From: Bacteroidales bacterium
GTDB taxonomy: Bacteria; Bacteroidota; Bacteroidia; Bacteroidales; WCHB1-69
Reading direction: 5' to 3'
DNA: 64,000 nt
Assembly: GCA_017535665.1 (NCBI GenBank)
Contig: JAFXTS010000015.1
Location: 73,462 to 137,461 of the forward strand
The notes beneath the pieces were generated by a model. The model did not search any database. It saw nothing but the letters and a program-made list of their open reading frames with translations, and was not told the origin of the DNA. Below, one piece after another: positions 17,752 to 45,300 of the stretch. A program made the translations under genes and the position numbers. Position 1 is the stretch's first letter; every line of letters begins with the position of its first letter.

Positions 17752-17770
17752 CGAGCTTAATATCAATACC

Positions 17771-18286
17771 ATGTCAACACCTCTCATCATTGTTATTGCA
17801 GTAGTACCTTCGCTCATCCTCGCGGTGGCCGCCTACCTGATTGTTCGCCAATTCATCGAAAATGAACAGCGGAAACGCCTTCTTGACCTGAAGTATGAGG
17901 CCAAGAACCATGTGCTCCCCATGCGCCTTCAGGCATACGAGCGTATGGCCATGTTCCTCGAGCGCATCGAGCCCAACCAGCTCATTTTCAGAGTGAATAA
18001 CCCGGAACTGACGGCCTATCAGATGCAGACCATCCTGTTGGCTACCATCCGTAGCGAGTACGAACACAACCTTTCCCAGCAGATCTATATCTCTGCGGAG
18101 GTGTGGGATTCCATCAAGAATGCCAAGGAACGCGTGGTCAACATCATCAACCTCGCCGCAGGCAAGTTGCCCGATGGGGCGATGGCTACCGACCTTCATA
18201 CCCAAATCTTTGAGGCCGTGGCCGAAAGCTCCCCAACCGCCACTGCCATGCAGCGACTGAAAAAGGAAATTAGCCTCCTTTATTAG
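17771..18286 (+). CDS. Small membrane-anchored protein, conserved hypothetical
   Basis: A 171-residue protein with one N-terminal membrane segment (about residues 4-26, Ile/Val/Ala-rich) followed by a charged helical region. The conserved-looking core is LPMRLQAYERMAMFLERIEPNQLIFRV (segment about residues 56-80), then helices around YEHNLSQQIYIS and AKERVVNIINLAAGKLP. I recall similar short proteins in Bacteroidota of unknown function; no catalytic motif is visible. It probably faces the cytoplasm. It lies 19 bp after glutamine synthetase and is followed by a terminator, so it closes that operon. Confidence 0.85.
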   Translation: MSTPLIIVIAVVPSLILAVAAYLIVRQFIENEQRKRLLDLKYEAKNHVLPMRLQAYERMAMFLERIEPNQLIFRVNNPELTAYQMQTILLATIRSEYEHNLSQQIYISAEVWDSIKNAKERVVNIINLAAGKLPDGAMATDLHTQIFEAVAESSPTATAMQRLKKEISLLY

Positions 18287-18723: not shown

Positions 18724-21700
18724 ATGAAAAAATTTACGATTTTTTTCCTGATGGTGTTTATGTATTTAGGGAATCAGGCGAAATGCGAGACGGTTTTGGC
18801 GTCGTCGGGAGACGATGTGACTGTCGGTCGTAACTTCGCTACGTGGTTCTCACACCATAGTGTCAATCCGAACGCCTCGGGAATGATTGCTTCTGAAAAT
18901 ACATACCGCACAGGCGGGGTGTATGAGGCAAATCGTGTGAAAGCTACACAGGGTCTCCATACGCATATTGAAGGGCCGGCGTACGCCTGCTCTTCGGCTA
19001 TGGTAACTTTGCATGCCGTCGTGTATGACGACGAAGCCACTACTGAAAACACCACGTATGCCTATACGTGGTTGAGTAGTACCAATCACGGTGCTGGCTA
19101 CAGTGCTGCCGCTGGTGCTACCAACAGTCAGGAGTTGGTGGTCAACATGTCGAGTGTCAACTCCGTCATGTACTACAAGGTAAAAGTGCAAAAATATGAG
19201 AATGGAGCTTGCGTAGGTCCCGCTGACACATCTGCCGTCTTCACTCTCACCCCCGTGGATCGTGGCGACGTAACCGTGACCGCCACCCCAGCAACGGCTT
19301 GCACCCAGAAAACTCTGACCGCTACCTCTAACAGCCCCGCTGTGGTGTACAGATGGCTGTGGCTGAAAGACGGTGCCTTTGTCGCCAATACCGGAACCAC
19401 CAACACCTACGTGGCTACCGAAGCTGGCGAGTATAAGGCAGTGGCCGAATACGAAGGTTCCAACCTGTGCAACGACACATCCGCCGCCGTCACCGTGGAA
19501 TTCACGGGTGCAGCCCTCACCCTGAAGGCCACCTCCACCTACGGATTGGATGACGACTTTGTGTGCCCCGGTGGTCAGGTGGTGCTGAAACCTACCAGCG
19601 GTACAGCCCCCTTCACTTTCTATCGCGGCGCCACCCTTCTCGGTACCTCCAATGATAGCCTCTTCGACACCCCCACCGCTGCAGGTACCTATACCTATAC
19701 TGTGGTGGATGCCGGCGGATGCACGGGTAGCACTACCTTCACTGTCACCGACATTGCCGATTTGTTGATTTACTCTACAAGTGCAACCCATTTCTGTGGC
19801 AACACGGGTTATGCGGTTACGGTCCAAACGAATTCCCAGCATTTGGTCTTTGATTCTACATCATACTACTGGTATGAGGATGGCTTCCGCACAATGTACA
19901 CGGATGTCTTCCCGGATACCCGCCTTACAAATATGTATTCAAGCAGTAACCTTCCGGTTAGCCCGGAACCGCATACCATTGTACTCGAAATCAATGATGC
20001 CAGCCGTAACTGCTTCTTCAGGAGTAACGAGGTCTCCATCCAGGTTGATCCCCTTCCGACGGTTACGCTTATCGTTGATTCTGTTTGTTTAGGCAATGCT
20101 GCTACGGTAACGGTGGAAGTAGAAGGTTATGTGGGTGACAACCCCGTTTATACTTGGAGTGGTAGCGCTTGGGCTACTCCTCCCACAGGAGCTGGTGCCA
20201 CAGTAACAACCGATGTTCTTACTGCAGATGCTAGTGTAAATGTAACGGTAACTGCTCCGCTGCCCCAACAGAGCTGTACCGCTGAAGCTACCGCCACGAT
20301 TAAAGTGGTTGAGACGGTTGCTTCTGGTGAAATCACCAGCAGCGACTTGGTCTGCAGCGGTAGCGAGGTGGTCTTCTCCGCCGAGGCTATCGGCGCCGGC
20401 TTCACCAACCCCGTCTATGCATGGAGTGGGGTTGCCAGTACCGATGCTACGGCAACCATCGCGGATGTGACCGCACCGGTGACCGCCACCGTGACCGTCA
20501 CGGGCGACAACCCGTCATCTACCGCCTGCTCGGTGACCGCCACCAAGACAGTTGAGGTGATGACCGCACTGCCCGACCCGACCGACGTGTCAGTGAATGT
20601 GTATATGCAGGGTAGTGCCCACGATGCCACCGCCGATTTAGTGGACATGGCTTGTGAGGGTGCTGCAGTGGATGTCGTAGCTGAAGGTTTCACTCCCAGC
20701 GATGAGTATATATATACATGGTATAGAAATGGAGTCCAACTTCCTGCCCAAGGTCTTTCCTTCACCGACCATTTGGAGAACCTCGGCAATGTGGATCCAG
20801 TCTATTTACTGCAATATACTCTCGTCATCTCACATGTGAACGGTTGTGGAAGTGATACTGTTGATGGTGCAGAGATTCCGGTTGCTCCGCTGGGTACGAT
20901 TACCTTGAGTGGTGATATCCGTGTATGTACCGGAACTGATGTTGAAATTATAGCAACTAATCCATACGCAGGTCTGTTCCCCCTGATTCCTGGTGCTGAC
21001 TATGCTTGGTATTTGGACGGCAATGAATTGACTGGTCCGAATTCAGCACCTGGTCTCAGTACAATGGTTTTCACCGAGGCTCTGGGAATGACCGCTCAAG
21101 TGGCTCCTCATGCTATCACAGCAGTGGCTTACTTTGATGGACCTAACGCAACACCTACTCCCCAAAACTATGCAGGATGTAACGCACTTGCTACCGCGTC
21201 TATTGAAGTGTATGTAGATCCGCAGCCCACCGTTCAGATTGTGGCTACCGACTCTGTCATTTGCGAAGGTGGTGAAGTTACCTTGACGGCTGTTCCTTCC
21301 AGAGAGGATATTCCTTATATGGTTTTTGTATGGAACGCCACTGATACTGCAAGATCGATTACCGTGAACGCAGCAGGCGTTTATAATGTGGATCTTACTC
21401 AGCTGGTAGACTACACAACTCCTAATCCTTCTTGTACGGCTACCGCTTCATACGAGGTGAAGACCGCTACCAAGCCCACCGTTACCCTCGCAGCTGATTT
21501 CGACACCATCTGCTCCGGCAGCCAGGTTACCCTGACCGCCACCGCTACCTTCGATGCCACCGCTGGTGACTCCACCTACACTTGGTACCGCAATGGTATC
21601 GAAGTGGCTACCACCACCACCAATACTTATACGGATGTTCTGACCACCGAAAATCAGGTTTCTACATATATATATAATGTAGTAGCAGGCCAGACCGCAA

Positions 21701-24700: not shown

Positions 24701-27700
24701 CTACTACACCTGCTGGTACTTATAGCTGGTACAGAAACAACGAGCTTATCAGCACCGATACCGCTCGCTTCTTCGTTGACAGCCCGCTGGCCGTTGACGG
24801 TGACAGAACGATGGTGGCTTACGAAGTTCGTTACGTACAAGACAGCACCAGCTGCCATGTGACCAAATATGACACCATCTACGTCTTCAAGAACTTTGAT
24901 GTGGTTATCAGTGGCGATCCGACCGTTTGCGACGGAAACAACAATATCGCTCTTACTGCTACTGTTAACGGAATGAACACCAATGATGCCCTCACCTCTA
25001 CTTGGTATAGAGATGGCATTGATGCCAGCTCGTATGGTGTCGCAGAAAACAATGCTGATAATTCTATTTATAAAGGCTCGAGTGCAGTTCGCACAGGCGA
25101 AGCCTCTACTACTTACATCTATACCGTTGAGATTTCTCGCGGTAATGGCTGTACCACGATGAGCGCTGAATATCCTGTTACGGTTTATGCAGCTCCTGTT
25201 GTTGAAGTGACCGCCGATGACACTACCATCTGTCAGAATGGTCAGGTGACCTTCACCGCTAACCTCGTGGACAACAACGCTACCGACCTTACCTACGAAT
25301 GGAAGGTGAACGATAATGTTGTTGCAGGTGCTACCACCAACACGATGACTTATACCTTCCTTGCCACCAGCGAACAGAAAGTGGTTTGCAACATTGCACA
25401 GACCATCTCTGGCTGTACGGCTACTGATACCTTGACCTTCACTCCGAAGGCTACACCGGTGGTTACGGTTGATGCCGATAACGACACTATCTGCTCTGGT
25501 TATCAGGTGACCGTTGTGGCAACCCCGACCACCTTTATCGCAGGCGAGCCTATCACTTATACTTGGTATAAGAATGGTGAGGTGATTGAAGGTGCTACTG
25601 ACAGCATTATCTATGACAATCCTGTTGCAGAAGGCGCATTTGGCACCAACTATGTGTATGGTGTGGCTATCAGCCAGCCCAGCTCTGCTTGCGCCTCCGC
25701 TATCGTTACAGATACTGTTATCGTGAAGGGTAATCCTACGGTTACCATCAGTGGTGATGCTATCATCTGCCATAACGACAGCATCGGTCTCGTAGCCAAT
25801 GTGAATGATTATGACGCCACTATGGGTGAGCTTACCTATCAGTGGAGACTGAGCAATGCTGATATCGCAGGTGCTACCAATGATACTCTTATCGAAAATA
25901 ACCGTCCGGCTGCTGACGAACCTTATATCTACACGGTTGTCGTCACCAACACTACTGACGGTTGCTCCGTTGAAAGTGCTCCTTACGAAGTATATGTCAA
26001 CGATACGATCCGCGTAGTCGTTACTTCTGACATTGATTCACTTTGCGAGGGTGCTGAAGTTACCCTTACTGCACATCTTGGAGATTACAATGCTTCTAAC
26101 CTGATTTACAGATGGTACGAAGAAGACGTTGAGATCCCGGGTGCTACCGAACGTATCATCACGGTTGTTCCTGCTAACACCGGAATGAATCACTACCGTG
26201 TTGATGTTCTTCAGACCACCTCTGAATGTGCTGCTTCTGGTGAAGATTCTGTAAAGGTTCTCGATGCTCCTACTTTGACCATCCATGCTAACCAGACCAT
26301 GATTTGCTCTGGTGGCGAGGTGATCATTTCTGCCGAGGCTTCACAAGAAGGTACCTATTCTTGGTATAAGAATGGTGTCCTGATCCAGGGCGCTACGATG
26401 GATACCTTGATTGATTCTCCGTTGGCTATTGATAACGATTCTACCGCATACGTTTACAGTGTGATCTTCTCTTCCGATATCGCTGGCTGTACAGCTACGA
26501 AAGACACCACCGTTTACGCTTATCCGAACCCGACCATCGCTATCTCTGGTGACCCGATGATTTGCGACGGTACGGATGTTGTTCTCGTTGCTCACGTGAA
26601 TGGTTATGACACCACTACCGCAGAGCTCCATTATCAGTGGATGTTGGCCAACAGCAACCTTACCGTTGCAAGTGCCACCACCGACACCCTGACTTACACC
26701 GCTGCTGACAGTACCGACGCTTACTCATTCTCCGTCATGGTATATGATAACGCTGGTTGCAGAAGCTTCTCCGATGTTTACAATGTCTATGTTAATGATA
26801 GTATTGAAGTTGTGGTCACTGCTGACGATACCACCATCTGTGAGAATGGTACCGTTACTTTGACGGCTCAGCTGGCTGATTACAACGAAAATAACCTTAC
26901 CTACCAGTGGTACACTGGTTCTATTACTGATGCCAACGCTATTGCTGGCGCTACCAGCAGAACCCTTACCACTACTGTAGCAGCTACTGAAACTTACTAC
27001 GTACAAGTCTTCCAGACTTCTACCGCTTGTGTTGCTGAAGGTAGCCAGACCATCCACGCCGAAACGGCTCCGGTTATCACTGCTATCGATTTGAGTGATA
27101 CCGCTGTTTGCGTCGGTTATGGTATCCAACTTACCGCTCACGCTACTGGCGGTGTTGCTGGTGAGCCCTACATCTTTACTTGGTACAGAAACGGTGTCCG
27201 TATGGATGGTATTACCGACTCTACCTTCACCGATGCTGCTCCGCTGACCGCTGTTGATGTTAACACCTATGTTTACTCTGCAACTGTTAGCCAGCCGAGT
27301 TCTGCTTGTACTTCCGAGCGCGTTGACGCTGACAAGGTTTTGAGCGTTTACTCTCTGCCTGTTGTCCAGATCTCTGGTGATGCAAGCCTCTGCTACGGTG
27401 ACACTGTTGTTCTGTGGGCACACATCCAGAATGATGATGCTACTCCGTTCACGACTGCCAATACTACTTGGGCTTGGAGACTCAACAACAATGACGTTTC
27501 CTCTGACCCGATGGTGGGCACCTTGATCAACCCGAGCACCATCATGTATCAAGAGAATCGTATTAATCCGGTTTGGAACGAGCCTTACAGCTATACCATC
27601 ACCATTAACAGAGGTCCTGGCTGTACGGTGACGAGCGAACCGTTCGACGTGATGATCTACAACTTGCCCGATGTCTTCGTGACGATTGAAGACACCACCA

Positions 27701-36700: not shown

Positions 36701-39700
36701 CTTGGTATGTTGATGGCGAGCTCCGCGACAATATGCAGTTCGGTTATGGTAGCAGCAGATACTTCAGCGAATACTACTATCCGAATGATCGTCCGTACCT
36801 CGTTCAGGTTGAGGTTACCAGAGGCAATGGTTGCCGTACCATGAGCGAACCGTTCGAATTCTGGGTTGAAAGAAAACCGAACGTATATGTTACCTCTACT
36901 GAGGCCGACATCTGCGAAGGTGGCAATGTTACCTTGACTGCTAACCTCGATGATTACCACTATGATGACCTCGTCTTCCAGTGGTACGAAAATGAGGTTA
37001 CCCTGGCCAACGCTATCTACGGTGCTACTCAGCCGTTCTACACCACTCCGGCTATGGACACCACCACGACTTACATCGTGAAGGTTACCAGAACCCGTTC
37101 AGGCTGCTTCGACGAAGATAGCTTCGAGGTAATCGTCCACGAAGATCCTACTGTGACTCTGTCTATCAGCGACTCTGACACGGTGATCTGCTCCGGCGGT
37201 GAATTCACCCTGACGGCTTCCGCAGTGTATGACAGCATCCTCGGTACTCCGATCTTCACTTGGATCAGAAACGGTGTTGTACTTGACAATACTTATGATT
37301 CCGTCTTCGTTGACCATCCGGTTACGGTTGACAATGATAGCGTGAACTACACCTATTCAGTATATGTCACTCTGACCGCTTCAGGATGTATGAGCACGGT
37401 TTCCGACAGCTCTACCATCAATGTCAACGTTCTGCCGAATGCTACCGTCCAGATCGAGGGTGACCCGGTTATCTGCGGTGCTGGTACCGAACTTGACACC
37501 ATCCGCTTGATTGCCAACGTGAATGACACCAGCGCTTTGGTTGATGGCTTCACCTACGAATGGAGACTGTACAACCGTACTATCAACCCGCTCCAAGACA
37601 GTGTGATTGGCCGCGCCGACAGCAACGTACTTGAAATTCTCGTTGCTCCGAGCACTGAAGCTTACCTGTTCACCGTCCATGTATGGAACGAGAACGGCTG
37701 CTCCACCAGCAGTGCTGAGTTCCCGGTGTACGTCAACGATACTACCAGCATCGTTGTGACGGCCAGCGAGACTGAGATCTGCGTGGGTGGTGAAGTTACC
37801 CTCTATGCTAACCTCGGTGATTACAATGTACCGAACCTCATTTATCAGTGGATTGCTAATGGTGACACCATCCCGGGTGCTACTTCATCAAGCTACACCA
37901 CTACTTTGGATTCCACCACGACCTTCGCCGTCAATCTGGTTCAGACCACCAGCTCTTGCTTGAGCTACTCTGACATCACGATCAACGTCCACGAAGATCC
38001 GGTTGTGACCCTCGAAATCAACGACAACGATACCGTTATCTGCGACGGTGGTCAGGTGACTCTGACAGCTACCGCAGTGTATGACAGCATCCTCGGACCT
38101 GCCACCTACACTTGGTATCGTAACCACGTTGAAATCGCTGACGCTCACGACAGCATCTATATTGAAAGCCCGCTGACCGTTGACGGTGACGTTACCACTT
38201 ACGAATACTCCGTAATGGTGACCCTGCCACAGAGCGGTTGCCAGTCTGTCATCACCGATTCTTCGACTGTTGTGGTTACCGTTTACGCTAACCCGACCAT
38301 CGAGATCGCTGGCGACCACAACATCTGTGGTACTGGTGTTGGTGCTGACACGATCCACCTCGTTGCTAACGTCAACGACAGTGTGACCAACAGCCACGGC
38401 TTCACCTTCGAATGGAGACTGTTCAATGTCACCGTTGGTACTGATACTAATGTATTTGATACGGTTGTACCGGCCAACGACGAGCCTTACATCTTCACCG
38501 CTATCGTTGCTAACGAAAACGGCTGTACGATGATGAGCGCACCGTTCGAAGTCTATGTACACGAAGCTGTTGAAGTAACGGCTCTCACTACTGAGGCTGA
38601 CATCTGCGAAGGCGGTACTGTTACCGTATCTGCACACCTGAACAACTACAACATTGAAGGTCTGACCTATCAGTGGATTGCTAATGGCGATACCATTGAG
38701 GGCGCTAACGAAGCTACTTACACGGCTACGCTCGACAGCACTACTACCTTCGAGGTTATCGTTGAACAGCCCACGACCTCTTGCATCAGCAATGCTGAGG
38801 TTACCGTGAATGTCCACGCTGACCCGGTTGTTACGGTTGCAATCTCTGACAATGACACCAACGTCTGCGAAGGTGGTCAGTTCACTCTGACGGCTACTGC
38901 AGTGTATGACAGCATCCTTGGTCTGCCGACCTACACTTGGTTCAGAAATGGTGTTGAAATTGAAAATGCTACTGAAGCTACTCTGACTGAATCTCCGGTT
39001 ACCGTTGATGGTGATCTCACCAGCTACCGTTATGAGGTTCTCGTGACCTTGACGGCCAGCGGTTGCCAGTCAGTCATCACCGATAGCTCTACTATTGATG
39101 TACATGTCTATCCGAACAGCACGGTTCAAATCTCTGGCGACCCGATCATCTGCGGTGCTGGTATGAACGCCGTATCTACTGTTCTGACTGCTAACCTGAA
39201 CGACACGGTTGTTGATGCTGACGGTTACACCTTCGAATGGAGACTGTTCAACCGTACAATTGACAGCACCGACGCTAATGTCAACGGCGCAGCTGACTCC
39301 AGCGTACTTGACTACACGCTGACTGTAAGCGACAACCCGTACATCTTCACCGTTATCGTCCACAACCCGAATGGTTGTACCACCGAAAGCGCTCCGTTCT
39401 ATGTCTACGTCAATGATACGGCTGACATCAACGTCACCATCAGCGAATACGACATCTGCGAAGGTGGTGAAGTTACCTTCATTGCTAACATCGGTGACTA
39501 CAACATGCCGAACCTGACCTACCAGTGGTACAGCGAGGACACCACCAATGCTATTGCTGGTGCTACTCAGTCCACCTACACCACCACGCTGGATACCGCA
39601 GCTGACTACACCTTCATTGTGAGAGTGTTCCAGCCGACCTCCAACTGTGTGGCTTACGGTGAAAACACTGTCCACGTACATGCTGATCCTGTTGTAACGG

Positions 39701-42700
39701 TTGCTATCAGCGATGAAGATACTACCATCTGCGAAGGTGGCCAGTTCACCCTGACTGCTACGGCTGTTTACGACAGCATCCTCGGTACTCCGGTCTACAC
39801 TTGGTTCAGAAATGGTGTTGAGGTTGCCAATGCTACCGAAGCCACTCTGACTGAATCACCTGTGACGGTTGACGGTGACGTTACTACTTATACTTATGAA
39901 GTACTCGTTACCCTGACCGCTAATGGTTGTCAGTCTGTCATCACCGACTCCTCTACCATGATGGTCACGGTTCTCCCGAACCCGACTGTTGAGATCGCTG
40001 GTGACCACAGCATCTGCGGCAACGGTGTTGGCGCTGACACCATCCACTTGGTGGCCAATGTCAATGACACTGTGGCTGATGTTGACGGCTTCACCTACGA
40101 ATGGAGACTGTTCAACCTAACGGTTGGTACTGACAGCAACGTCTTCGACACTGTTGTTCCGAGCAACGATGAGCCTTACATCTTCACGGTGTTCGTCCGC
40201 AACGAAAACGGCTGTACCGTTGAAAGCGCTCCGTTCGAGGTTCTGGTTAACGAGCCTGTTGTTGTGACTGCTCTTGCTACTGAGTATGACATCTGCGAAG
40301 GTGGTACTGTCACGGTGAGCGCACATCTCGACAACTACAATATTGACGGTCTTACCTATCAGTGGGTGGCCAATGGCGACACCATCAGCGGTGCTACCTC
40401 ATCCACCTACACTACCAGCTTAGATTCCACCACGACCTTCGAGGTGATCGTTGAGCAGCCCACGACCTCTTGCATCAGCAATGCTGAGGTTACTGTGAAC
40501 GTCCATCCGGATCCGGTTGTGACGGTTGCTATCAGCGACGAAGACACTGTGATCTGCGAAGGTGGCGAGTTCACGCTGACTGCTACGGCTGTTTACGACA
40601 GCATCCTCGGCGACGTGACCTACACTTGGACGAAGAACGGTGTGGTTGTTGCTGGTGCCAACGATGCTACCTTGCACGAGTCACAGATTACTGTTGACAA
40701 CGACATTACCACCTACACCTACACGGTGAAGGCTACTTTGACCGCCAGCGGTTGCGAATCTGAAATCACGGATTCCTCTACCATGGTTGTCACTGTACTG
40801 CGTAACGCTACCGTTGTTATCGCTGGTGATCCTGTGATCTGCGGTTCTGGTGTTGCTGCCACTACTGTCCATCTCACCGCTAATGTCAATGACACGAGCG
40901 CTCTGGTTGACGGCTTCAGCTACGAATGGAGACTGTTCAACGAGACTCTGGCTGGTGAGACCACCAACGTACTGGATATGACTCTCGCTCCGAGCGTTGA
41001 TCCTTACACCTTCACCGTTGTCATCACCAATGAAAATGGTTGCGGTGTGGTCAGCGAAGAGTTCAACGTGATGGTCAATGCAGCACCTGAGGTTGTTGTG
41101 ACGGCTACTGAGACCGACATCTGCGAAGGTGGCCAGACCACTCTGACCGCTAACCTTGGCGATTACAATACTGAATTCCTTACCTACCAGTGGCAGCTGA
41201 ATGGTGTTGACATTGCCGGTGCTACTATGCCGACCTACACCACGCCTGCTTCCTTACTGGATGGTACATATTACTACACGGTCATCGTAAGACAGACCAC
41301 TTCCGACTGCGTATCTTCGGCTGACTACACGGTCAACGTACATGCTGACCCGGTTATCACCGAAATCACTGTCAGCAACGAAGTGATTTGCGACGGTGGT
41401 CAGGTGGTGGTTACTGCTACTGGTAACTACGACACTGAACTCGGTGCTGCTACCTACACTTGGTTCAGAAATGGTGTTGAACTCACGGGTATCACCTCCA
41501 ACACCTTCACCGATTACCCGACTATCGTTGATGACCAGACCACGTTCACTTACAGTGCTATCGTGACGCTTGCAGCCAGCGGTTGTACCTCTGCTGAGGC
41601 CTTCGCTCCGGTTGTAACGGTTAATCCTGAAGCTACGATCACTGTTTCTACCACAGGTTCTCTGACGGTTTGCGAAGGCGGTAATGTCACGCTGACTGCC
41701 AATGTTGATCCTGCCGGTACTTACGACTACCAGTGGTATGTTGACAATGTACCTGCTGGTCAGAACAGCAACGTATTCGTTGGTCAGGGCTTCGCAGCTA
41801 GAGAGACTCCGTACCTGATCCACGTGGCAGTTACTGGCGACGCTGGCTGTATGACCTCTACGATCACTGAGCCTGTTGCAGTGAATGTGGTTGCTGACCC
41901 GATCGTCACCTTGGTTGACGTGAACAGCGCTGATGCTTCTACCGTCTGTGTCGGCGGCACCGCTACCCTGTATGCTTCATACGATGGTGGTGTGGCTCAG
42001 ATCAACGGTCTTGGCACTCCGACCTTCACTTGGTTCAACAATGGTGAAGAGGTTGGCACTGGTAATACCTACGTAATTCCTGACACGCTGGCTGCTGGCT
42101 CATACGCTTACACAGTTGTGATGTCCTTCGAGGATAACGCTTACGGTTGCGATGTGAACTCCGCAGTTCAGGGTGCTACTTACAACTTCACTGTGGTTGA
42201 TGACCCGACTCCGTTCATCGCTGTGAATGTTGACAATGACACGCTCGTCTGCGAAGGCGGTCATACCTCTCTCTACGTACACCACATTGATGGTGGTATT
42301 GAGGGTGCCGCTTACGAATATCAGTGGTATCGCAATGGTATCATCCTCGCTGGTGAGACCAACCCGACCTTGACGACTGACGCAACTCTGGTACCGGGTA
42401 ACTACGAGTATCAGGTCATTGTGACGCTCGACGGTGTAGCTTGCGACGGTGCTTCCAACACGATCACGGTACCTGTGATGGCTCTGCCGGTTGTTACGAT
42501 TGCTGATGCTGCCAACGTATGCGTTGGTGGTCAGGTGACCATGACGGCTACGGTTGACGAGACTTATGGTGCTACTGTGACCTATCAGTGGAACAGAGAT
42601 GGTCAGCCGCTGGATGGCGCTAACCAGTCCACTTACACTACGGATGCTAACCTGTCGGTTGGTTCATACAACTACACTGTTACTGTAATCAATCCGTTGA

Positions 42701-45216
42701 GCGGTTGCCAGGCTACCTCTGGTGCTGTGGCTGCCAACGTGGTTGCTGATCCTTCTGTTACGATCCTCGGTGCAGCTGACGTCTGCGTTGGTGGTACCAT
42801 CACCTTGGTGGCTGATGTTGCCGAAACGGTTGAGGGTGCTGCTTACGACTACGCTTGGTACAGAGATGGTGTTCAGGTGGGTGGTAATACCAACACCTAC
42901 ACCTCCGATGCAAGCCTCGCTGCTGGCACTTACAACTACTATGTGGTGATTACACCTTCTGACATGAGTGGTTGCAACGCTACCTCTGCTATCGTCCAGG
43001 CTTCTGTGATGGACGGCCCGACTGTTACGATCAGCGGTTATGACGAGGTTTGCGAAGGCGGTAGTGTGACTCTGAACGCTAATGTACAGCCCACCGGTAC
43101 CTACAACTACACTTGGTACTTGAATGGTGCTGTGGTTAACACTCAGAACACCTCTACTATCAATACCGATGCTACTCTGGCAGCTGGTACTTACACCTAC
43201 ATGGTTGAGGTTACCAACAACACCTTCTACAGCTGTATTGCTAACGCTCAGTTCACCTACACGGTGGATGCTGAACCGGTTATCGACAGCATTGTTACTT
43301 CACTCCCGAACAACCAGATGTGCGTGGGTGGCAATGTTACGCTGACTGCTTCTATGAGCAACGGCACTGCAGTTGCCAATGCTAACACCGTATATCATTG
43401 GACGGTGAACGGTCGCGAACTCACTGGTGTGACTGGCCCGCAGGTGACTGAAAACATCACCATCGCCGGTACCTACACCTACACTGTGTATGTGACCCAG
43501 AACCACAATGAGTACAACCTCGGTTGCGAATCTGAACCGCAGTCCATCGTGATTGAAGTTCTTGAGCAGCCCTACGTTGGCATCTCCTACAGCGGTCTGC
43601 TGCAGGTCTGCGAAGGTGGTTATGTTGAGCTGAATGCCATCATCGAAGGTGGTATCGGTGATCCGACCATCACTTGGAGACGTAACAACGCTAGAATTTC
43701 TGAATACGATGGTTTGACCACCATCCACACCGATACTAACGACCTGATTGGTACTTACACCTACTCAGTGACCGTTACCTATCCGGCTGCTACGGGTTGC
43801 CGCGCTACTTCAGACAATGTTTCTGTGAGCGTACTCTACCAGCCTGTTTGGGGTCAGACTGTGGTATCACCTGCTGATGTGTGCGAAGGCGGTGAGATTA
43901 ACCTCTATGCTACTGTAAGCGGTGGTGTTGAGGATGCCAACCACCAGACCGGTACCTTCATCCAGTGGGTATATGCTCCGGTTGACAATATGGAAGATGT
44001 AAGCAACGTACTTGGCGGTCTCGGCGGTCAGTCCTACGATATCGCTAACGAGGCTGGTATCTACGTATACTACCCGACCTACGTTGCTCCTGCCAACACC
44101 AACTGTACTCCGAGCAACACGCCGAATGCTACGACGGTGACCGTCCACGCTCACCCGACCGTAACGATGACCCTCGGCAATGGCTCTGACGTACTCTGCT
44201 GGAACAATGCTGATGATAATGCTACCATCAACTTCACCTTCACGGGTACTGCTCCGTTCCACTTCTTGCTCCAGAACATGACCACTGGTGTTGTGACTGA
44301 ATACACCAGCTACAGCAACGTCTTTACGCTCGAAGTCACTCCGAATGTCTCCACGACTTATCAGATCTTCCAGCTGTCTGACGCATACTGTATCGGCGAG
44401 GTTGTCGATGAGACCTCAGTCTCCATCGTTGTATCTCAGTTCGAGATCGTTGCTGACAGCGTAAGCATCTGTCCGGATGTTGATGGTGCTGTTGCAGTCT
44501 TCCAGTTCAACAACCTGACTGTCAACGATGATCGCGACACCATCTGGTATCAGATTGTGGATTACAACAACATCGGCTTCGACTATGAATGGGGTATGAT
44601 GAACCTCGAGGACAACACTGTTTCGATCTGGATGCCGACCACCGAACCGGGTATCTATCACTTCGGTATCGTTATCGATGGTTGCGAATACGATGTGACT
44701 GTGAACATCCTCTGGGGCTCTACCAATGGTATCAACCTTGTGGATCAGAAGTGGGACGATGTGGTTGTTGCCAACAACAATCCTCAGACCAACGGCGGTC
44801 ATACCTTCATCGCTTACCAGTGGTACAGAAATGGCGAACCCATCCCGGGTGCTACACATCAGTACTACCAGGAGATTGGCGGCCTGAACGGCGTCTACAG
44901 CTTATGGTTGATGGATGACCAGGGCAATGAGTACTGGACTTGCGAAATCATCGTCGCTACCAACGCTCAGCTCCGCGTATATCCTGTTCCTGCTCACACT
45001 GGTGTTGAAATTATTGTTGAGCTCCCGTACTCCGACGAAGAACTCGATGGTGCAGTACTTGACATCTTCGATGCTAAGGGTGCCCTCGTACAGAGAGTGA
45101 CCAACCTGCAGACCATCACCAGAGTTGCCGGATTCGAAGCTCAGGGTACCTACTTCGGTCGTATCACTACCGGTACGAACAATATTGAGACGGTTAAATT
45201 CATCATTGTGAAATAA
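18724..45216 (+). CDS. Giant (8,830 aa) Ig-like repeat surface protein exported by T9SS
   Basis: One open frame of 26,493 bp without interruption. Residues 1-21 form a signal peptide (KKFTIFFLMVFMYLG core). About seven diverse Ig-like modules follow (to residue ~720), then a 25-cycle array of three-module super-repeats (~728 to ~7,600), then about ten simpler modules of the VCxGGxVTLTA...TYTYxV type, two atypical modules, and a T9SS type A sorting domain (8749-8830). A typical module is about 90 residues: Cys in IC-x-GG-x-V-T-L-T-A, a central YTWYRNG, YEWRL or YQWY tryptophan strand, then Y-x-Y/F-x-V and a GC motif with the second Cys. The two Cys probably form the intersheet disulfide of Ig folds. 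The product is Thr/Asp/Val-rich, acidic, poor in Lys, and near 0.9-1 MDa. A role as a long surface adhesin, stalk or fibre is inferred from architecture. No catalytic domain was seen. Confidence 0.93.
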   Translation: MKKFTIFFLMVFMYLGNQAKCETVLASSGDDVTVGRNFATWFSHHSVNPNASGMIASENTYRTGGVYEANRVKATQGLHTHIEGPAYACSSAMVTLHAVVYDDEATTENTTYAYTWLSSTNHGAGYSAAAGATNSQELVVNMSSVNSVMYYKVKVQKYENGACVGPADTSAVFTLTPVDRGDVTVTATPATACTQKTLTATSNSPAVVYRWLWLKDGAFVANTGTTNTYVATEAGEYKAVAEYEGSNLCNDTSAAVTVEFTGAALTLKATSTYGLDDDFVCPGGQVVLKPTSGTAPFTFYRGATLLGTSNDSLFDTPTAAGTYTYTVVDAGGCTGSTTFTVTDIADLLIYSTSATHFCGNTGYAVTVQTNSQHLVFDSTSYYWYEDGFRTMYTDVFPDTRLTNMYSSSNLPVSPEPHTIVLEINDASRNCFFRSNEVSIQVDPLPTVTLIVDSVCLGNAATVTVEVEGYVGDNPVYTWSGSAWATPPTGAGATVTTDVLTADASVNVTVTAPLPQQSCTAEATATIKVVETVASGEITSSDLVCSGSEVVFSAEAIGAGFTNPVYAWSGVASTDATATIADVTAPVTATVTVTGDNPSSTACSVTATKTVEVMTALPDPTDVSVNVYMQGSAHDATADLVDMACEGAAVDVVAEGFTPSDEYIYTWYRNGVQLPAQGLSFTDHLENLGNVDPVYLLQYTLVISHVNGCGSDTVDGAEIPVAPLGTITLSGDIRVCTGTDVEIIATNPYAGLFPLIPGADYAWYLDGNELTGPNSAPGLSTMVFTEALGMTAQVAPHAITAVAYFDGPNATPTPQNYAGCNALATASIEVYVDPQPTVQIVATDSVICEGGEVTLTAVPSREDIPYMVFVWNATDTARSITVNAAGVYNVDLTQLVDYTTPNPSCTATASYEVKTATKPTVTLAADFDTICSGSQVTLTATATFDATAGDSTYTWYRNGIEVATTTTNTYTDVLTTENQVSTYIYNVVAGQTASGCVSDAATDTVRVAPLHNVYVTGTQLLCNSLTETTLTANVTPVGNYTYKWYKDGAEQGADATLNATGLTLRSQPYVFIVEVTNTTTGCVVASEAYNVYNTDSNAVYITATPDSICSGTPVTLTADVVGAADEVSYTWSMGDQTANAVVVTEPGTYNVTVTDLTTRCTATGSVEVKSATAPTLTIAPTESEICWGEQVTLTVSGATDGEFTWTENGFILPAQDSILTVMPQPMNNHVDTFVYNINYVNNTTGCTAIADPAKVIVHPNPAVAITADTTVICLGDEIVLTAVDSLGLTGSTSYVWKEQGRQVQSGTTNTYTATPDAAGIYSYTVDATNHGCTTTSVPFNLIVNAQPVVAISVDDTTICVSGSATFTAQPANIAGVSYNWDVDGTTYTAAQFTHQFTTANTYKVVCEATQAGCTAKDSVNVKVSARPTVTLAITPDAICSGSTDTLATTVVGGDENDIFTFTWYKNGVQLGSAVNEETLTDAPVASGNNVTTYTYGVMVSQASSGCQSDIDDATIDVYPAPTVVISGDNILCANGTVNLTAVASDTIAGVAYTYTWRMDNAEQGTGKTLTKDLTLRDNPYIFTVQLTNEATGCTATSAEFPVSVDSLGNITVTASETEICKGGDVTLSSSFLGSANTDIAYQWYLGSIAAGNEIAGATTDTYTATNLTADQTYYLEATQISTGCKVNGSVAVEVKDDPIVKFEATPEAICQGGQVYLNATVTANITNPQVHYFWYRNGQAITGADTNTFIDNPTIADIDSNVYVYSLYVTLDNSGCTSTYAYDTVSVYHNPTITISGDQLLCGNNGQNEVNLTASLNDTIAGTYTFLWREDNVNTTVTDRVFSKEKEYRQYPYEYTVVVTGPNGCSVVSDPYLVYVNDTLVVGVDATTGNVCAGEEVTLTAAVADNFDATTYRWYTVEGANENEIPNEYGNTLTVYPTATTQYRVRVMQNNTFCTAAGDTTINVVNAPDLTLSILPAGDSICEGGQVTLTLDPATTPAGTYSWYRNNELISTDTARFFVDSPLAVDGDRTMVAYEVRYVQDSTSCHVTKYDTIYVFKNFDVVISGDPTVCDGNNNIALTATVNGMNTNDALTSTWYRDGIDASSYGVAENNADNSIYKGSSAVRTGEASTTYIYTVEISRGNGCTTMSAEYPVTVYAAPVVEVTADDTTICQNGQVTFTANLVDNNATDLTYEWKVNDNVVAGATTNTMTYTFLATSEQKVVCNIAQTISGCTATDTLTFTPKATPVVTVDADNDTICSGYQVTVVATPTTFIAGEPITYTWYKNGEVIEGATDSIIYDNPVAEGAFGTNYVYGVAISQPSSACASAIVTDTVIVKGNPTVTISGDAIICHNDSIGLVANVNDYDATMGELTYQWRLSNADIAGATNDTLIENNRPAADEPYIYTVVVTNTTDGCSVESAPYEVYVNDTIRVVVTSDIDSLCEGAEVTLTAHLGDYNASNLIYRWYEEDVEIPGATERIITVVPANTGMNHYRVDVLQTTSECAASGEDSVKVLDAPTLTIHANQTMICSGGEVIISAEASQEGTYSWYKNGVLIQGATMDTLIDSPLAIDNDSTAYVYSVIFSSDIAGCTATKDTTVYAYPNPTIAISGDPMICDGTDVVLVAHVNGYDTTTAELHYQWMLANSNLTVASATTDTLTYTAADSTDAYSFSVMVYDNAGCRSFSDVYNVYVNDSIEVVVTADDTTICENGTVTLTAQLADYNENNLTYQWYTGSITDANAIAGATSRTLTTTVAATETYYVQVFQTSTACVAEGSQTIHAETAPVITAIDLSDTAVCVGYGIQLTAHATGGVAGEPYIFTWYRNGVRMDGITDSTFTDAAPLTAVDVNTYVYSATVSQPSSACTSERVDADKVLSVYSLPVVQISGDASLCYGDTVVLWAHIQNDDATPFTTANTTWAWRLNNNDVSSDPMVGTLINPSTIMYQENRINPVWNEPYSYTITINRGPGCTVTSEPFDVMIYNLPDVFVTIEDTTICEGGEIVAYANIGFNNTHDTAFYDANDLTYVWSVDGTVVDGAVGATMTTTLTATGSVPVKVEVVANSTRCTVEHTANVNVSELPEVTSVDLSEANICEGTQVTVTAHATNGVDDEPYIFTWYRNGQLIAGATDSILVEAPVLTDIDAHTFVYSVVARQASAACESAPVASDTLTVIQNPTVEISGDAILCNDSTVILVAHINDTLLATGELSYQWRLYNSNLVDGGDITGATADTLQVANVAAQDEAYIYTVEVSNTNGCTSLSEPYYVYVNDTILVEVTADNDSVCAGGQVVLTANLGNYNTDNLIYRWYTVEGANETEIAGATSRILTVNPSATTLYRVRVMQTTSECKAEGEMEIKVVTPLELTLTLTPDTNICQGGQITLTATEGDGVYSWMRNGVTIEGATTNTISESPLAVDNDITSYNYAVVFYPNIEGCVSETVDTTVYVYPNHTVTISGDPILCNTNNVQLLATLHDTVDAANVTYEYQWLLDGVETANTTAEIDENQPARDYPYVYSVRVTNNLTGCSAQSEDYYVYVDAEPEVVVTASETDVCENGVVTLTAHLGNYNTPNLVYAWSVDGTAIAGATEATYVATVDDTHTYSVSVTQVNSDCSATGDITITKHDAPVVAVAIGTVTDTTICDGGQVTLVATTTADAELGEITYTWYENGSVIAGATGDTYTVAPQAVGMGETVYTYSVVASANAPACVSAPAEAVVRVYAQPVVTIHGHHTVCEGTGNVTLMAHIQTSLSIADVANYRTWYRDGFPIGDFHGMWLPTTDGYYCFYFATTEVLNEPHNYTFDLNFGNNCHVTTDPFQVTVLPKPVSYILVDDVDTTICKGGEITASVALADPNATGITYTWFLDNVEITGATESTVTVTLPDAQDYVLSANVRQTVSDPAYNCATTPDITIHAVDVPTVASVELSADTVCAGYQVAIAAVTVADGTTDDYIYTWYRNGVEYQTGSDSIIYDTPSALNGDTATYIYSVVVSQPSAGCVSEPAADTLYVFPNPTVWISGDQIICDHGTIELHANLNDTVSTHTFHYDWRLSNTHIGDDAVDFSVDTTFRDEPYIFTVTVYNERGCAVTSDPYYVYVNDSVRVEVTHSVDSICPGGEVTFTANLVDYNADNLVYRWSEVRGNNVGDTVEIHGATSRILTIHPTQYNKYIVDVMQTTSECKAQGFDTITIMEPEVLTWEEVSDTAICFGGEVTLAVTPVQMDGYYTWYRNGVQIAGANLNRILDSPAAIDGDSTAYEYAVMFNPIFDGCRTELIDTTVYVHPSPVLEITGDAIVCTRTDSNIYLIAHISDTSIASRDITYSWYESNNLITNNESTNDTLVISNVEFRDNPYIYTVVASNDNGCTVTSAPYEVFVNDTILVEVTATADTVCAGAHVILTANLGDYNADNLVYRWYAKEEGETDSTEVWGGTSRILEIQPLKTTYYTVLVRQTTSECYAIGYDTITVAAPIALTMRLDAGFDTICNGGEITLTVMDDQDPAQPVEGRFIWTRNGVVIPGANGNSIIESPLAVDNDSTAYVYGAVLDLGLEGCITESSVDTTIIVYMNPTVQISGDPIICNVSGTDDNLILVANVNDTVHHDLTYQWRLANRDIEGATSDTLRAHLDASDNPYLFTVQVANHRGCTTLSDEFPVYVNDTASIQVVVTADYDTVCVGGDVTLTAHLADYNSSALTFQWFKHDTTANGDDTLIAIDYGTEPILHYTMTDSLWNIFELHITQTNSSCQAVGIDSVYVWPRVPYAISHVHALNIANNSHLICDGGEVDVQVELVDIDGNRIDSTLFTYNWYRNGFEHPFLSGPWFRESPLTVDDDTTHYQYSAVIVLDIPGCEYSQINFSDTVTVVRNPWVQISGNPYVCQYMPIGLNAWVDGDIAPMTTTYNWYLDGQLHQTIQSYRFYHWDSLPVSTGFAYNFVVEVVDANGCSGFSDPFQVVVVEAPVVHITATEDTICKGGEVTFTANLDNYNIEYLQYQWYKDAILETNRIPGATNPTYTDSLNTSHTYFVEVFSSLVANDGLCTAIDSFHVEVVPDPVVDSVTISIDQICDGGQVTVIAHATQGVPSDAYTYTWFRNGILMEGITDSMFTESPLTVDNNITQYVYSAIASQVSSGCTSAQTFATDTLTVYPNPTVVIAGDPIICEDSVVMLSANVTNDYIDAELTYTWLLYNDTIRTPRTGAGADTIIDVRPAQDHPYIYTAVVNNPHGCLTESAPFYVYVNDTIIVEVTSTEDTICEGGSITLTANIGDYNANALTYRWYQNDTTAANEIFGATQSQLTITPDSTMNYYVRVFQTTSDCETFGSYRITVNPIPVIDTIELSINEICDGGQVTITAHAHGGVDVPNTPYIFTWYRNNEVIEGVTDSVFTESPLTVDGNITDYVYSATVAQNVSGCTSERKYADSILRVNPNPQVVISSDPLICEDDTIHLVANVTDEYPTADLNFTWMLDNDTVADGLGMTQFDTLVEPRDHSYDFTVRVSNIHGCVTESAVYSVTVNPRPVVEITAYEDTICETGSTILRANVDNGFLTNLMYRWYNVESGDPIYGGMQNELTVYPDSTTRYAVEVYQVGSECVSYDTITIKVNERPVIDSIILSDYEICDGGQVTVIAYTHGGVDTANIPYIYTWYRNGELVVGETGATFTVSPLTVDNDITEYVYSAVVYQNVSGCTSDSAASDILRVNPNPYVVISSDPLICQFDSVHLYANVTDDYPTANLNFTWKLDNDTIADGIGMTQFDTLLEPRDHSYNFTVVVANDLGCVSTSDVYRLVVNPMPAVEITASELDICEGGSTVLTANIDNYNLTNLMYRWYADSLTNPLDGDMQRIVTVSPDTTTTYYVQIYQVGSECVNYDSIVINVHEIPVVDSVTLSFYEMCYGGQPTITAHTHGGVDSVEFPYYYTWYRNGELIPNVTAGTFTDNLNELAVDDDDTYYVYTAVAHQIPSGCTSLETSSDRLNVYMNPRVQVTGDPYVCQTDPIFAYANVDTSSINVGPLTYTWYVDGELRDNMQFGYGSSRYFSEYYYPNDRPYLVQVEVTRGNGCRTMSEPFEFWVERKPNVYVTSTEADICEGGNVTLTANLDDYHYDDLVFQWYENEVTLANAIYGATQPFYTTPAMDTTTTYIVKVTRTRSGCFDEDSFEVIVHEDPTVTLSISDSDTVICSGGEFTLTASAVYDSILGTPIFTWIRNGVVLDNTYDSVFVDHPVTVDNDSVNYTYSVYVTLTASGCMSTVSDSSTINVNVLPNATVQIEGDPVICGAGTELDTIRLIANVNDTSALVDGFTYEWRLYNRTINPLQDSVIGRADSNVLEILVAPSTEAYLFTVHVWNENGCSTSSAEFPVYVNDTTSIVVTASETEICVGGEVTLYANLGDYNVPNLIYQWIANGDTIPGATSSSYTTTLDSTTTFAVNLVQTTSSCLSYSDITINVHEDPVVTLEINDNDTVICDGGQVTLTATAVYDSILGPATYTWYRNHVEIADAHDSIYIESPLTVDGDVTTYEYSVMVTLPQSGCQSVITDSSTVVVTVYANPTIEIAGDHNICGTGVGADTIHLVANVNDSVTNSHGFTFEWRLFNVTVGTDTNVFDTVVPANDEPYIFTAIVANENGCTMMSAPFEVYVHEAVEVTALTTEADICEGGTVTVSAHLNNYNIEGLTYQWIANGDTIEGANEATYTATLDSTTTFEVIVEQPTTSCISNAEVTVNVHADPVVTVAISDNDTNVCEGGQFTLTATAVYDSILGLPTYTWFRNGVEIENATEATLTESPVTVDGDLTSYRYEVLVTLTASGCQSVITDSSTIDVHVYPNSTVQISGDPIICGAGMNAVSTVLTANLNDTVVDADGYTFEWRLFNRTIDSTDANVNGAADSSVLDYTLTVSDNPYIFTVIVHNPNGCTTESAPFYVYVNDTADINVTISEYDICEGGEVTFIANIGDYNMPNLTYQWYSEDTTNAIAGATQSTYTTTLDTAADYTFIVRVFQPTSNCVAYGENTVHVHADPVVTVAISDEDTTICEGGQFTLTATAVYDSILGTPVYTWFRNGVEVANATEATLTESPVTVDGDVTTYTYEVLVTLTANGCQSVITDSSTMMVTVLPNPTVEIAGDHSICGNGVGADTIHLVANVNDTVADVDGFTYEWRLFNLTVGTDSNVFDTVVPSNDEPYIFTVFVRNENGCTVESAPFEVLVNEPVVVTALATEYDICEGGTVTVSAHLDNYNIDGLTYQWVANGDTISGATSSTYTTSLDSTTTFEVIVEQPTTSCISNAEVTVNVHPDPVVTVAISDEDTVICEGGEFTLTATAVYDSILGDVTYTWTKNGVVVAGANDATLHESQITVDNDITTYTYTVKATLTASGCESEITDSSTMVVTVLRNATVVIAGDPVICGSGVAATTVHLTANVNDTSALVDGFSYEWRLFNETLAGETTNVLDMTLAPSVDPYTFTVVITNENGCGVVSEEFNVMVNAAPEVVVTATETDICEGGQTTLTANLGDYNTEFLTYQWQLNGVDIAGATMPTYTTPASLLDGTYYYTVIVRQTTSDCVSSADYTVNVHADPVITEITVSNEVICDGGQVVVTATGNYDTELGAATYTWFRNGVELTGITSNTFTDYPTIVDDQTTFTYSAIVTLAASGCTSAEAFAPVVTVNPEATITVSTTGSLTVCEGGNVTLTANVDPAGTYDYQWYVDNVPAGQNSNVFVGQGFAARETPYLIHVAVTGDAGCMTSTITEPVAVNVVADPIVTLVDVNSADASTVCVGGTATLYASYDGGVAQINGLGTPTFTWFNNGEEVGTGNTYVIPDTLAAGSYAYTVVMSFEDNAYGCDVNSAVQGATYNFTVVDDPTPFIAVNVDNDTLVCEGGHTSLYVHHIDGGIEGAAYEYQWYRNGIILAGETNPTLTTDATLVPGNYEYQVIVTLDGVACDGASNTITVPVMALPVVTIADAANVCVGGQVTMTATVDETYGATVTYQWNRDGQPLDGANQSTYTTDANLSVGSYNYTVTVINPLSGCQATSGAVAANVVADPSVTILGAADVCVGGTITLVADVAETVEGAAYDYAWYRDGVQVGGNTNTYTSDASLAAGTYNYYVVITPSDMSGCNATSAIVQASVMDGPTVTISGYDEVCEGGSVTLNANVQPTGTYNYTWYLNGAVVNTQNTSTINTDATLAAGTYTYMVEVTNNTFYSCIANAQFTYTVDAEPVIDSIVTSLPNNQMCVGGNVTLTASMSNGTAVANANTVYHWTVNGRELTGVTGPQVTENITIAGTYTYTVYVTQNHNEYNLGCESEPQSIVIEVLEQPYVGISYSGLLQVCEGGYVELNAIIEGGIGDPTITWRRNNARISEYDGLTTIHTDTNDLIGTYTYSVTVTYPAATGCRATSDNVSVSVLYQPVWGQTVVSPADVCEGGEINLYATVSGGVEDANHQTGTFIQWVYAPVDNMEDVSNVLGGLGGQSYDIANEAGIYVYYPTYVAPANTNCTPSNTPNATTVTVHAHPTVTMTLGNGSDVLCWNNADDNATINFTFTGTAPFHFLLQNMTTGVVTEYTSYSNVFTLEVTPNVSTTYQIFQLSDAYCIGEVVDETSVSIVVSQFEIVADSVSICPDVDGAVAVFQFNNLTVNDDRDTIWYQIVDYNNIGFDYEWGMMNLEDNTVSIWMPTTEPGIYHFGIVIDGCEYDVTVNILWGSTNGINLVDQKWDDVVVANNNPQTNGGHTFIAYQWYRNGEPIPGATHQYYQEIGGLNGVYSLWLMDDQGNEYWTCEIIVATNAQLRVYPVPAHTGVEIIVELPYSDEELDGAVLDIFDAKGALVQRVTNLQTITRVAGFEAQGTYFGRITTGTNNIETVKFIIVK
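34126..36606 (+). repeat. Locally homogenised adjacent cycles in the giant gene
   Basis: The cycles starting at 34963 and 35782 (819 bp apart) are closer to each other than to most others. Both have ISSDPLIC, a Y-P-T-A-(D/N)-LNFTW segment, GMTQFDTL with EPRDHSY, and a following NLMYRWY plus YQVGSECV. The third module of the cycle starting at 34126 also carries the HGGVD and YTWYRN features found in the next two. This reads as a recent tandem duplication of one cycle. Confidence 0.75.
37453..41640 (+). repeat. Higher-order ABABA repeat (~1.69 kb unit) near the 3' end of the array
   Basis: Cycles at 37453, 39130 and 40819 share one type (CGxG followed by extended loops), and 38305 and 39994 share another (AGDHxICG, GVGADTIHLVANVND, VTALxTE). 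The B cycles are 1,689 bp apart and include a 36-bp identical stretch (38767 onward and 40456 onward). The 37453 and 40819 cycles share NVNDTSALVDGF and YEWRL. The first and third modules in between share AVYDSILG and SxITDSST. This indicates duplication of two-cycle blocks. Confidence 0.8.
44968..45213 (+). other. T9SS type A sorting domain of the giant protein
   Basis: Residues 8749-8830. Key features are LRVYPVPA at the start, then a LDIFDAKGALVQRV strand pair, QGTYFGRI, and the closing basic/hydrophobic strand VKFIIVK. This matches the C-terminal domains recognised by the type IX translocon and removed or modified at the cell surface. It shows the gene is intact to its 3' end. Confidence 0.92.
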
Positions 45217-45225
45217 AGTTAGTCT

Positions 45226-45262
45226 GTGACCTTGGCAGCTACGGCTGTCAAGGTTCACATTT
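45226..45262 (+). terminator. Hairpin between the giant gene and the OmpA-family gene
   Basis: A stem of about 14 bp (from GTGACCTTG at 45226 to GGTTCAC ending at 45258, with one bulge and one G-T pair), followed by only four T. It begins 10 bp after the giant gene stop. The short T run suggests a partial terminator or a processing/stability element letting some transcription reach the next gene. Confidence 0.55.
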
Positions 45263-45300
45263 TAACCATATTAAAACTGAAAATTAAATACAGCAATATT

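Follow-up and report, generated by a model that had tools for sequence, protein, structure and literature searches.

An intact giant gene with signals for surface export

The 64,000-nucleotide stretch of contig JAFXTS010000015.1 analyzed here (the window; positions 73,462 to 137,461 of the forward strand, Bacteroidales bacterium assembly GCA_017535665.1) carries at 18724..45216 a gene for a protein of 8,830 amino acids (aa) built of immunoglobulin (Ig)-like modules. The locus raises the question of what such a protein, here called the rope, does at the cell surface and how it is kept there. It is a real surface rope that is under selection and occurs across a whole family, and its dedicated, anchor-like partner is encoded by the next gene. 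On balance we favor the reading that the intact rope of ∼92 modules serves as a long adhesive tether, with predicted export by the type IX secretion system (T9SS), and that the adjoining OmpA-type protein fastens it to the cell wall. This mechanism was derived from the anatomy of the two proteins. All features described below lie on the + strand.

The rope gene was a single open frame of 8,830 codons with zero internal stops, while the remaining five frames across the same interval held 68 to 804 stops each. The start of the protein, MKKFTIFFLMVFMYLGNQAKC, resembles a Sec signal peptide (residues 1–21, 18724..18786, judged by eye) and was kept across the genus; a similar MKKF start was found in most relatives. 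The T9SS type A sorting domain TIGR04183 was matched at the end of the rope (44968..45213) with 30.5 bits, above the cut-off of 23, and with 36.5 bits in a genome-wide search. Matches above the cut-off were also obtained for the rope relatives of G004, G024 and G017 (G000 denotes the genome of the window itself, all other G numbers its relatives). The stop-free frame, the signal peptide and the type A sorting domain of the original prediction were thereby confirmed.

The genome of the window is a metagenome-assembled genome (MAG) of 2.56 Mb in 33 contigs and is 97% complete. The translocon gene was identified by a SprA_N match on contig C15 (555 bits), and by this gene and its sorting domain the rope is classified as a T9SS type A cargo with predicted secretion. 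The genome has a very large T9SS cargo repertoire, with 106 TIGR04183 matches (105 over the cut-off), among which the rope ranks 87th, and 16 matches to the type B domain TIGR04131, 14 of them over the cut-off.

The module array

A hidden Markov model (HMM) bootstrapped from the rope itself detected 92–93 Ig-like modules with a median spacing of 93 aa, two of the matches being partial, in agreement with the roughly 90 modules originally predicted. The Pfam families matched were Ig_7 (CHU_C-associated), Ig_3, Ig_2 and PKD. The 191 cysteines of the rope mostly follow alternating intervals of ∼27 and ∼65 residues, which would fit one disulfide per module. The identity between modules was highest three modules apart (mean 0.426 at lag 3 versus ∼0.31 at lags 1, 2, 4 and 5), and this signal was echoed at lags 6, 9 and 12. 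The resulting three-module cycle, a-b-c, occupies the stalk (residues 2060–8462, 24901..44109), its regularity falling toward the C-terminal end.

At the DNA level the array is old and diverged. Self-comparison of the rope gene revealed no exact repeat of at least 40 bases; the best internal match was 87% over 63 bases and the longest extended over 944 bases at 73%. The copies were 60–87% identical and mostly spaced by ∼795–882 bases, corresponding to three modules, or by multiples of this distance. Tandem Repeats Finder, which covered periods up to 500 bases only, returned no rows. In the most recent-looking module pairs (modules 70–77) 81–86% of the residues were common. An origin of the array from recent tandem duplication was rejected on the basis of the copy identities and the lack of exact repeats of at least 40 bases, and for the same reasons a collapse during assembly is unlikely.

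An Ig module is ∼4 nm long, and 92 extended modules would accordingly reach ∼370 nm. A second estimate of ∼270 nm was obtained by scaling from the gliding adhesin SprB, using ∼6,500 residues, the figure of the original prediction, and the length of ∼200 nm given in an excerpt of PMC12635249; like the first, it applies to an extended chain. The rope was correctly predicted to be longer than SprB, whose mass is 669 kDa according to an excerpt of PMC9143113, yet the orthologues of G012 and G010 are longer still.

Orthologues and genomic setting

The last 730 residues of the rope were matched in 25 of 60 genomes, comprising the own genome and 59 relatives. Complete in-contig rope genes were present within the genus in G012 (9,397 aa), G004 (7,924 aa) and G010 (9,391 aa). 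Complete genes were also found in other genera of the family, in G024 (4,182 aa), G034 (4,517 aa) and G017 (4,778 aa), and genes cut by contig ends in G003, G028, G019, G021 and G013. A protein search with residues 7700–8830 gave 72 matches (551 candidates scored). Fifty-one of these (P0001–P0051) showed 99–100% coverage, 36–77% identity and lengths of 4.9–8.0 thousand residues, and their inter-module identity peaked at lag 3 in 49 cases and at lag 6 in two; among the remaining 21 matches a peak at lag 3 or 6 was seen in five.

The upstream flank, consisting of a glutamine synthetase and a DUF7935 gene (16246..18286), was conserved within the genus. The order DUF7935–rope was found in the own genome and in six (G003, G004, G008, G010, G011 and G012) of the seven genus genomes in which DUF7935 was found; in the seventh, G001, the contig breaks off 100 bases after this gene. 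The test for an empty site covered 12 other genus genomes, in five of which (G002, G005, G006, G007 and G009) DUF7935 was not found. No rope-free site after DUF7935 was identified among the seven genomes with this gene, of which G001 has the early contig end. As complete orthologues exist in other genomes and 51 relatives have the C-terminal region and the cycle in common, the rope as read from these sequences is a family and no assembly oddity. The source bacterium is likely to come from an animal gut, judging from the relatives G012 and G004.

The C-terminal region and the partner gene

The C-terminal part of the rope comprises a conserved region (residues 8485–8662, 44176..44709) without a PDB sequence match from residue 8491 onward, followed by a pre-sorting Ig-like domain (residues ∼8666–8745, 44719..44958), which is common to other cargoes with a barrel partner, and the sorting domain. 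The gene 3′ of the rope (45301..46890) encodes a protein of 529 aa from the ATG at 45301; the mechanical open reading frame begins with a GTG at 45226. The partner has a signal-peptide-like start, a predicted OmpA/OprF-type β-barrel (residues 38–348, 45412..46344), a linker and an OmpA/Pal-type domain (residues 402–526, 46504..46878).

The order of a rope gene and a gene with an OmpA/OprF-type barrel and an OmpA domain was found in all 12 testable loci. Two weak barrel matches (L071, 17.5 bits; L073, 12 bits) were discarded, as were G025, where the partner lies at the contig edge, and G008, where the rope is a C-terminal fragment and the partner is on a separate contig. Because the partner gene follows the rope in all 12 loci, the two proteins probably make up a long adhesive tether that is anchored to the cell.

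The Pfam families of the partner were OMP_b-brl families and OmpA, with no PorP/SprF family among them. In the structure search the best natural rows were OmpA/OprF-type barrels, while a FadL chain was weak in Foldseek (rank 34, TM 0.12–0.13); the absence of PorP/SprF from the structure rows leaves room for such a fold or another unlisted one. A PorP/SprF-type partner would have been expected from the gene order; both the Pfam and the structure searches point to OmpA/OprF. The models suggest an OmpA/OprF-type protein with a small N-terminal barrel and a C-terminal OmpA domain, for which wall binding is predicted. Likewise, the Ig fold of the rope modules, the OmpA/OprF-type barrel and the OmpA/Pal fold of the periplasmic domain are all predictions. 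The NCBIfam match of the partner, to a TpgA-type family, covered the OmpA part only and, at 42 bits, stayed far below the cut-off of 350.

Similar barrels were also found 3′ of other T9SS adhesins, such as a cargo with List_Bact-type repeats in G052, and for this reason the combination of cargo tail and barrel looks like a portable anchor. Two cargo/barrel pairs in G052 (L058 and L072) have barrel-only partners of 292 aa without an OmpA domain, possibly an ancestral or a PorE-assisted form of the anchor. The predicted periplasmic linker of the window partner contains a CxxC motif (TCNAC, 46417–46431). This motif was present in the six genus partners examined and not in those of G024, G034 and G017. 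For SprF and PorG, CxC tails for disulfide attachment to the moving track are described in an excerpt of PMC12635249.

Divergence along the rope

Orthologues were compared by identity and synonymous divergence (dS), for G012 in segments of 200 residues, and by the ratio of nonsynonymous to synonymous divergence (dN/dS) in segments of 500 residues; dS values above ∼1 are near saturation. In comparison with G012, residues 4001–8800 showed 89.5–99.5% identity with a dS of 0.03–0.73, versus 30–94% identity and a dS of 0.75–2.4 for residues 1–4000, with a sharp jump near residue 4000. The partner had a dS of 0.31 and the upstream genes of 1.1–3.2, and the DNA match to G012 extended 52 bases beyond the partner stop. 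The block of low divergence thus runs from approximately residue 4000 through the partner gene (30721..46890). The dN/dS of the anchor-side half was 0.04–0.10; together with the orthologues elsewhere, this supports the earlier proposal that the gene persists under selection.

In comparison with G004 the rise was milder (83–89% identity and a dS of 0.80–1.07 over residues 4501–7500) and with G010 the conservation increased gradually. The least conserved or gapped part was always, with G012, G004 and G010 alike, the first 1,500 residues. Beyond approximately alignment column 2,300 none of the three orthologue comparisons had a gap of 30 residues or more, which places the length changes on the tip side; the tip-side modules (residues 82–2059, 18967..24900) were the most diverged. 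From these alignments, the tip differs between species more than the base. Between the own species and that of G012, the base and the partner show far lower divergence than either the tip or the upstream flank. The anchor-side half and the partner were therefore probably exchanged between these lineages as a single ∼16-kb block, on which purifying selection acts. The main caveat is that a strain chimera in one MAG could in principle produce the same pattern.

Special modules along the stalk

Module types were assigned with HMMs built on the modules of the window rope, and positions were counted from the C-terminal end. The a-b-c cycle was broken by five special modules, X, each followed by a y module. 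They were located at positions −70 (24901..25194), −61 (27358..27666), −52 (29869..30189; the least conserved of the five), −40 (33274..33546) and −28 (36595..36876), with spacings of 9, 9, 12 and 12. Two further modules near the tip, at residues 353 and 725, were likewise assigned to X and are not counted among the five. Typing in other ropes leans toward X, because X was defined on the window rope. All five positions were occupied by X in G012 (98 modules) and G004 (82 modules), and three of the five (−61, −40 and −28) in G010. In the truncated rope of G003 the X modules stood at −28, −37 and −49, a pattern that the lack of a single triple would give. By module typing, the X register was not shared by G024, G034 and G017.

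The X modules were longer than the a modules (mean 98.6 versus 93.7 residues) and richer in F, W, Y and H (0.158 versus 0.117). They were also less conserved than their neighbors (permutation p = 0.007 for G012, 0.019 for G004 and 0.008 for G010). Their fixed places, together with the divergent tip, suggest specific contacts; that the X modules themselves are contact sites is a guess.

Putative glycosylation of the rope

The rope is acidic, with 1,052 D+E versus 233 K+R. An O-glycosylation motif of Bacteroidota, (D)(S/T)(A/I/L/V/M/T), is given in an excerpt of PMC8550257. D-[ST]-[AILVMT] occurred 163 times in the rope versus a shuffle mean of 59 (z = 15.7), while the E- and N-led versions of the motif were depleted. 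An excess was also found in the ropes of G012, G004, G010 and G024 and was absent in those of G034 (27 versus 24.4) and G017 (11 versus 22.1); among the 51 relatives the ratio of observed to expected motifs ranged from 0.45 to 2.75. In the own genome the motif reached 1.99 times the expectation in 57 exported-like proteins and 1.12 times in 101 others. This contrast was uneven among genomes: the corresponding values, from small samples, were 2.61 versus 0.86 in G017, 1.89 versus 1.65 in G034 and 2.15 versus 1.53 in G012; the exported-like class was defined by a crude signal-peptide rule. The motif counts suggest that the rope may be heavily glycosylated in its own lineage. Since the excess is absent in G034 and G017, O-glycosylation was rejected as a trait of ropes in general; at most it characterizes a lineage.

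Relation to known systems

The closest solved structure was that of grappling hook protein A (GhpA) of Aureispira sp. CCB-QB1, reportedly described by Lien et al. in 2024 (PDB 9flp and others). A profile of 30 module triples searched against the PDB found GhpA first, with an E-value of 4.9e-156 over 16 stretches, while the next matches were an Ig-like domain protein (9ncf, 2.7e-23) and then the phage decoration protein Hoc. Two pieces of the rope protein matched GhpA with E-values of 2.5e-45 and 5.3e-34. When a modeled module triple (pLDDT 87.7) was submitted to Foldseek, the first six rows were all GhpA fragments, with TMq values of 0.54–0.67 at 16–21% identity. No significant GhpA match was found for the residues before ∼1048, and in a single-sequence search the last 340 residues had no PDB match at E-values up to 10. 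The likeness to a known adhesin family along the whole length, named in the original prediction as a refuting result, was therefore found for most of the array and not for its two ends. That prediction recognized no described family with this module cycle and overlooked the relation to GhpA. Neither the rope family nor the rope–partner pair was recognized among the literature matches listed, as judged from titles and the beginnings of abstracts.

Both proteins are giants of Ig modules with export by the T9SS, which is predicted for the rope, and in its modules the rope is built like GhpA; membership is not claimed. The rope differs in its length (8,830 versus 5,898 aa), its three-module cycle and its last 340 residues, and it has an anchor-like partner gene beside it. 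Compared with SprB–SprF of Flavobacterium johnsoniae, which likewise combines a giant T9SS adhesin with an adjoining outer-membrane partner gene, the rope has a type A instead of a type B sorting domain, and its partner is of the OmpA/OprF type with an OmpA domain and without a Pfam PorP/SprF match. A dedicated OmpA-domain protein beside a giant adhesin is also known from Acinetobacter, where TpgA accompanies the trimeric autotransporter Ata, although the secretion system differs from that of the rope. In PorE–PorP–PG1035 of Porphyromonas gingivalis a barrel-held cargo is tied to the wall by a peptidoglycan-binding protein, according to an excerpt of PMC9143113. The rope locus would resemble this arrangement in the barrel-held cargo and the wall tie; it differs in that the barrel and the predicted wall-binding domain form one chain and the cargo is of type A. 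The rope belongs with the giant T9SS adhesins as a variant.

Proposed mechanism and alternative explanations

Each module would form roughly one disulfide as it folds in the periplasm, after which the rope would pass the SprA translocon, whose gene the genome contains, and remain on the cell surface. There, the pre-sorting Ig-like domain and the sorting domain may dock on the barrel of the partner, while the periplasmic domain of the latter would grip the peptidoglycan. By docking and grip together, a pull on the tip would be borne by the wall, beyond what lipid alone could hold. The N-terminal tip, a few hundred nanometers out, would carry the variable binding surface, and the five special modules along the stalk are possible further contact sites. 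Plant fiber, mucus or another microbe are candidate ligands.

Among the alternatives, the rope could be a passive coat, an acidic and perhaps O-glycosylated brush without a specific ligand that keeps phages, enzymes or bile at a distance. The composition and the motif excess of the rope are compatible with this, but the excess varies among the relatives as described, and the fixed special modules and the divergent tip suggest specific contacts; we regard a mere coat as unlikely. Slightly less likely still is a prey-capture grappling hook, in which a GhpA-like multimer snags other cells that are then killed. An excerpt of PMC11205867 describes the hook protein as a T9SS-secreted heptamer that catches prey, with a type VI secretion system (T6SS) for the killing, and GhpA is by far the best PDB match of the rope. 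However, GhpA may top the search with whatever array of such Ig modules is used, solved examples being few, and two sheath families, PF05943 (VipB) and PF04984 (contractile sheath), had no match in the 97% complete genome; controls were matched in one and in three of 14 genomes, and the sensitivity of both families for the Bacteroidota type of T6SS was unchecked. Ixotrophy with contractile weapons is therefore disfavored for the own genome, and the rope was not assigned as a grappling hook because of these two absences and the unmatched last 340 residues. Of the fiber, tether or prey/host-contact role originally proposed, the export signals and the architecture support the fiber or tether; prey contact may still apply, though neither sheath family was matched in the genome.

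The neighborhood of a giant T9SS surface protein and an outer-membrane partner also recalls sprB–sprF, as described in excerpts of PMC12635249 and PMC9143113, and with it a gliding adhesin propelled on an internal track. SprB-type gliding is disfavored by the type A sorting domain of the rope, which is not among the 16 type B matches of the genome; the partner has an OmpA domain and an OmpA/OprF-type barrel, and contig C19 encodes another giant, of type B, that contains SprB repeats. We consider this role very improbable. An assembly artefact, with a collapsed or chimeric repeat, could be suspected from a MAG contig, and the step near residue 4000 might in principle reflect a strain chimera in one of the two MAGs. 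It is hardly credible given that the gene is uninterrupted and comparably laid out in the assemblies of several species, that its upstream flank is shared within the genus, and that exact internal repeats of at least 40 bases are lacking.

For the wall-held adhesive tether, a wider reading can be offered tentatively: a portable wall anchor for type A T9SS adhesins, with fixed contact modules, an exchangeable tip and a mobile cassette of anchor and base, forming a mechanically loaded tether unlike SprB or GhpA. Its components would be the pre-sorting Ig-like and sorting domains on the cargo and the one-chain OmpA-type barrel with its peptidoglycan clamp, onto which different stalks would be grafted, Ig ropes at the rope loci and List_Bact-type repeats in G052. 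Type A cargoes of the T9SS are described as relying on a single general carrier, PorV, and as being released or joined to lipopolysaccharide afterward. If the reading is true, a static, wall-bound anchor of its own would be a third fate for such a cargo. The anchor pair, consisting of the last 190 residues of the rope and the 529-residue partner, is directly testable and most worth testing. The range of GhpA-like Ig ropes, whose solved structures have until now come from a marine predator, is extended to gut-type Bacteroidales without a detected contractile weapon. New features are the anchor-like partner gene, the fixed and faster-evolving modules, and a divergence that is far lower in the base and partner than in the tip and upstream flank; the adjacent gene, the three-module cycle with its fixed special modules and the contrast of a variable tip with a conserved base had all been overlooked in the original prediction.

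Further observations

The second giant of the own genome, on contig C19 (L096/L097, gene ending near 79567), has an open frame of 7,706 codons. SprB repeats as well as HYR and PKD domains were found in the 4,998 residues that were scanned. Its type B sorting domain is the best in the genome, and it is a candidate gliding adhesin separate from the rope. A gene for a protein of 718 aa shortly downstream encodes an S46 peptidase and no SprF-like barrel. Within the window, a 1,558-aa protein without a Pfam match is encoded at 2353–7029, after a TonB-dependent receptor-like gene. Its tail gave a weak match to the T9SS sorting domain, with 18 bits in one search and 22.9–23.3 bits genome-wide.
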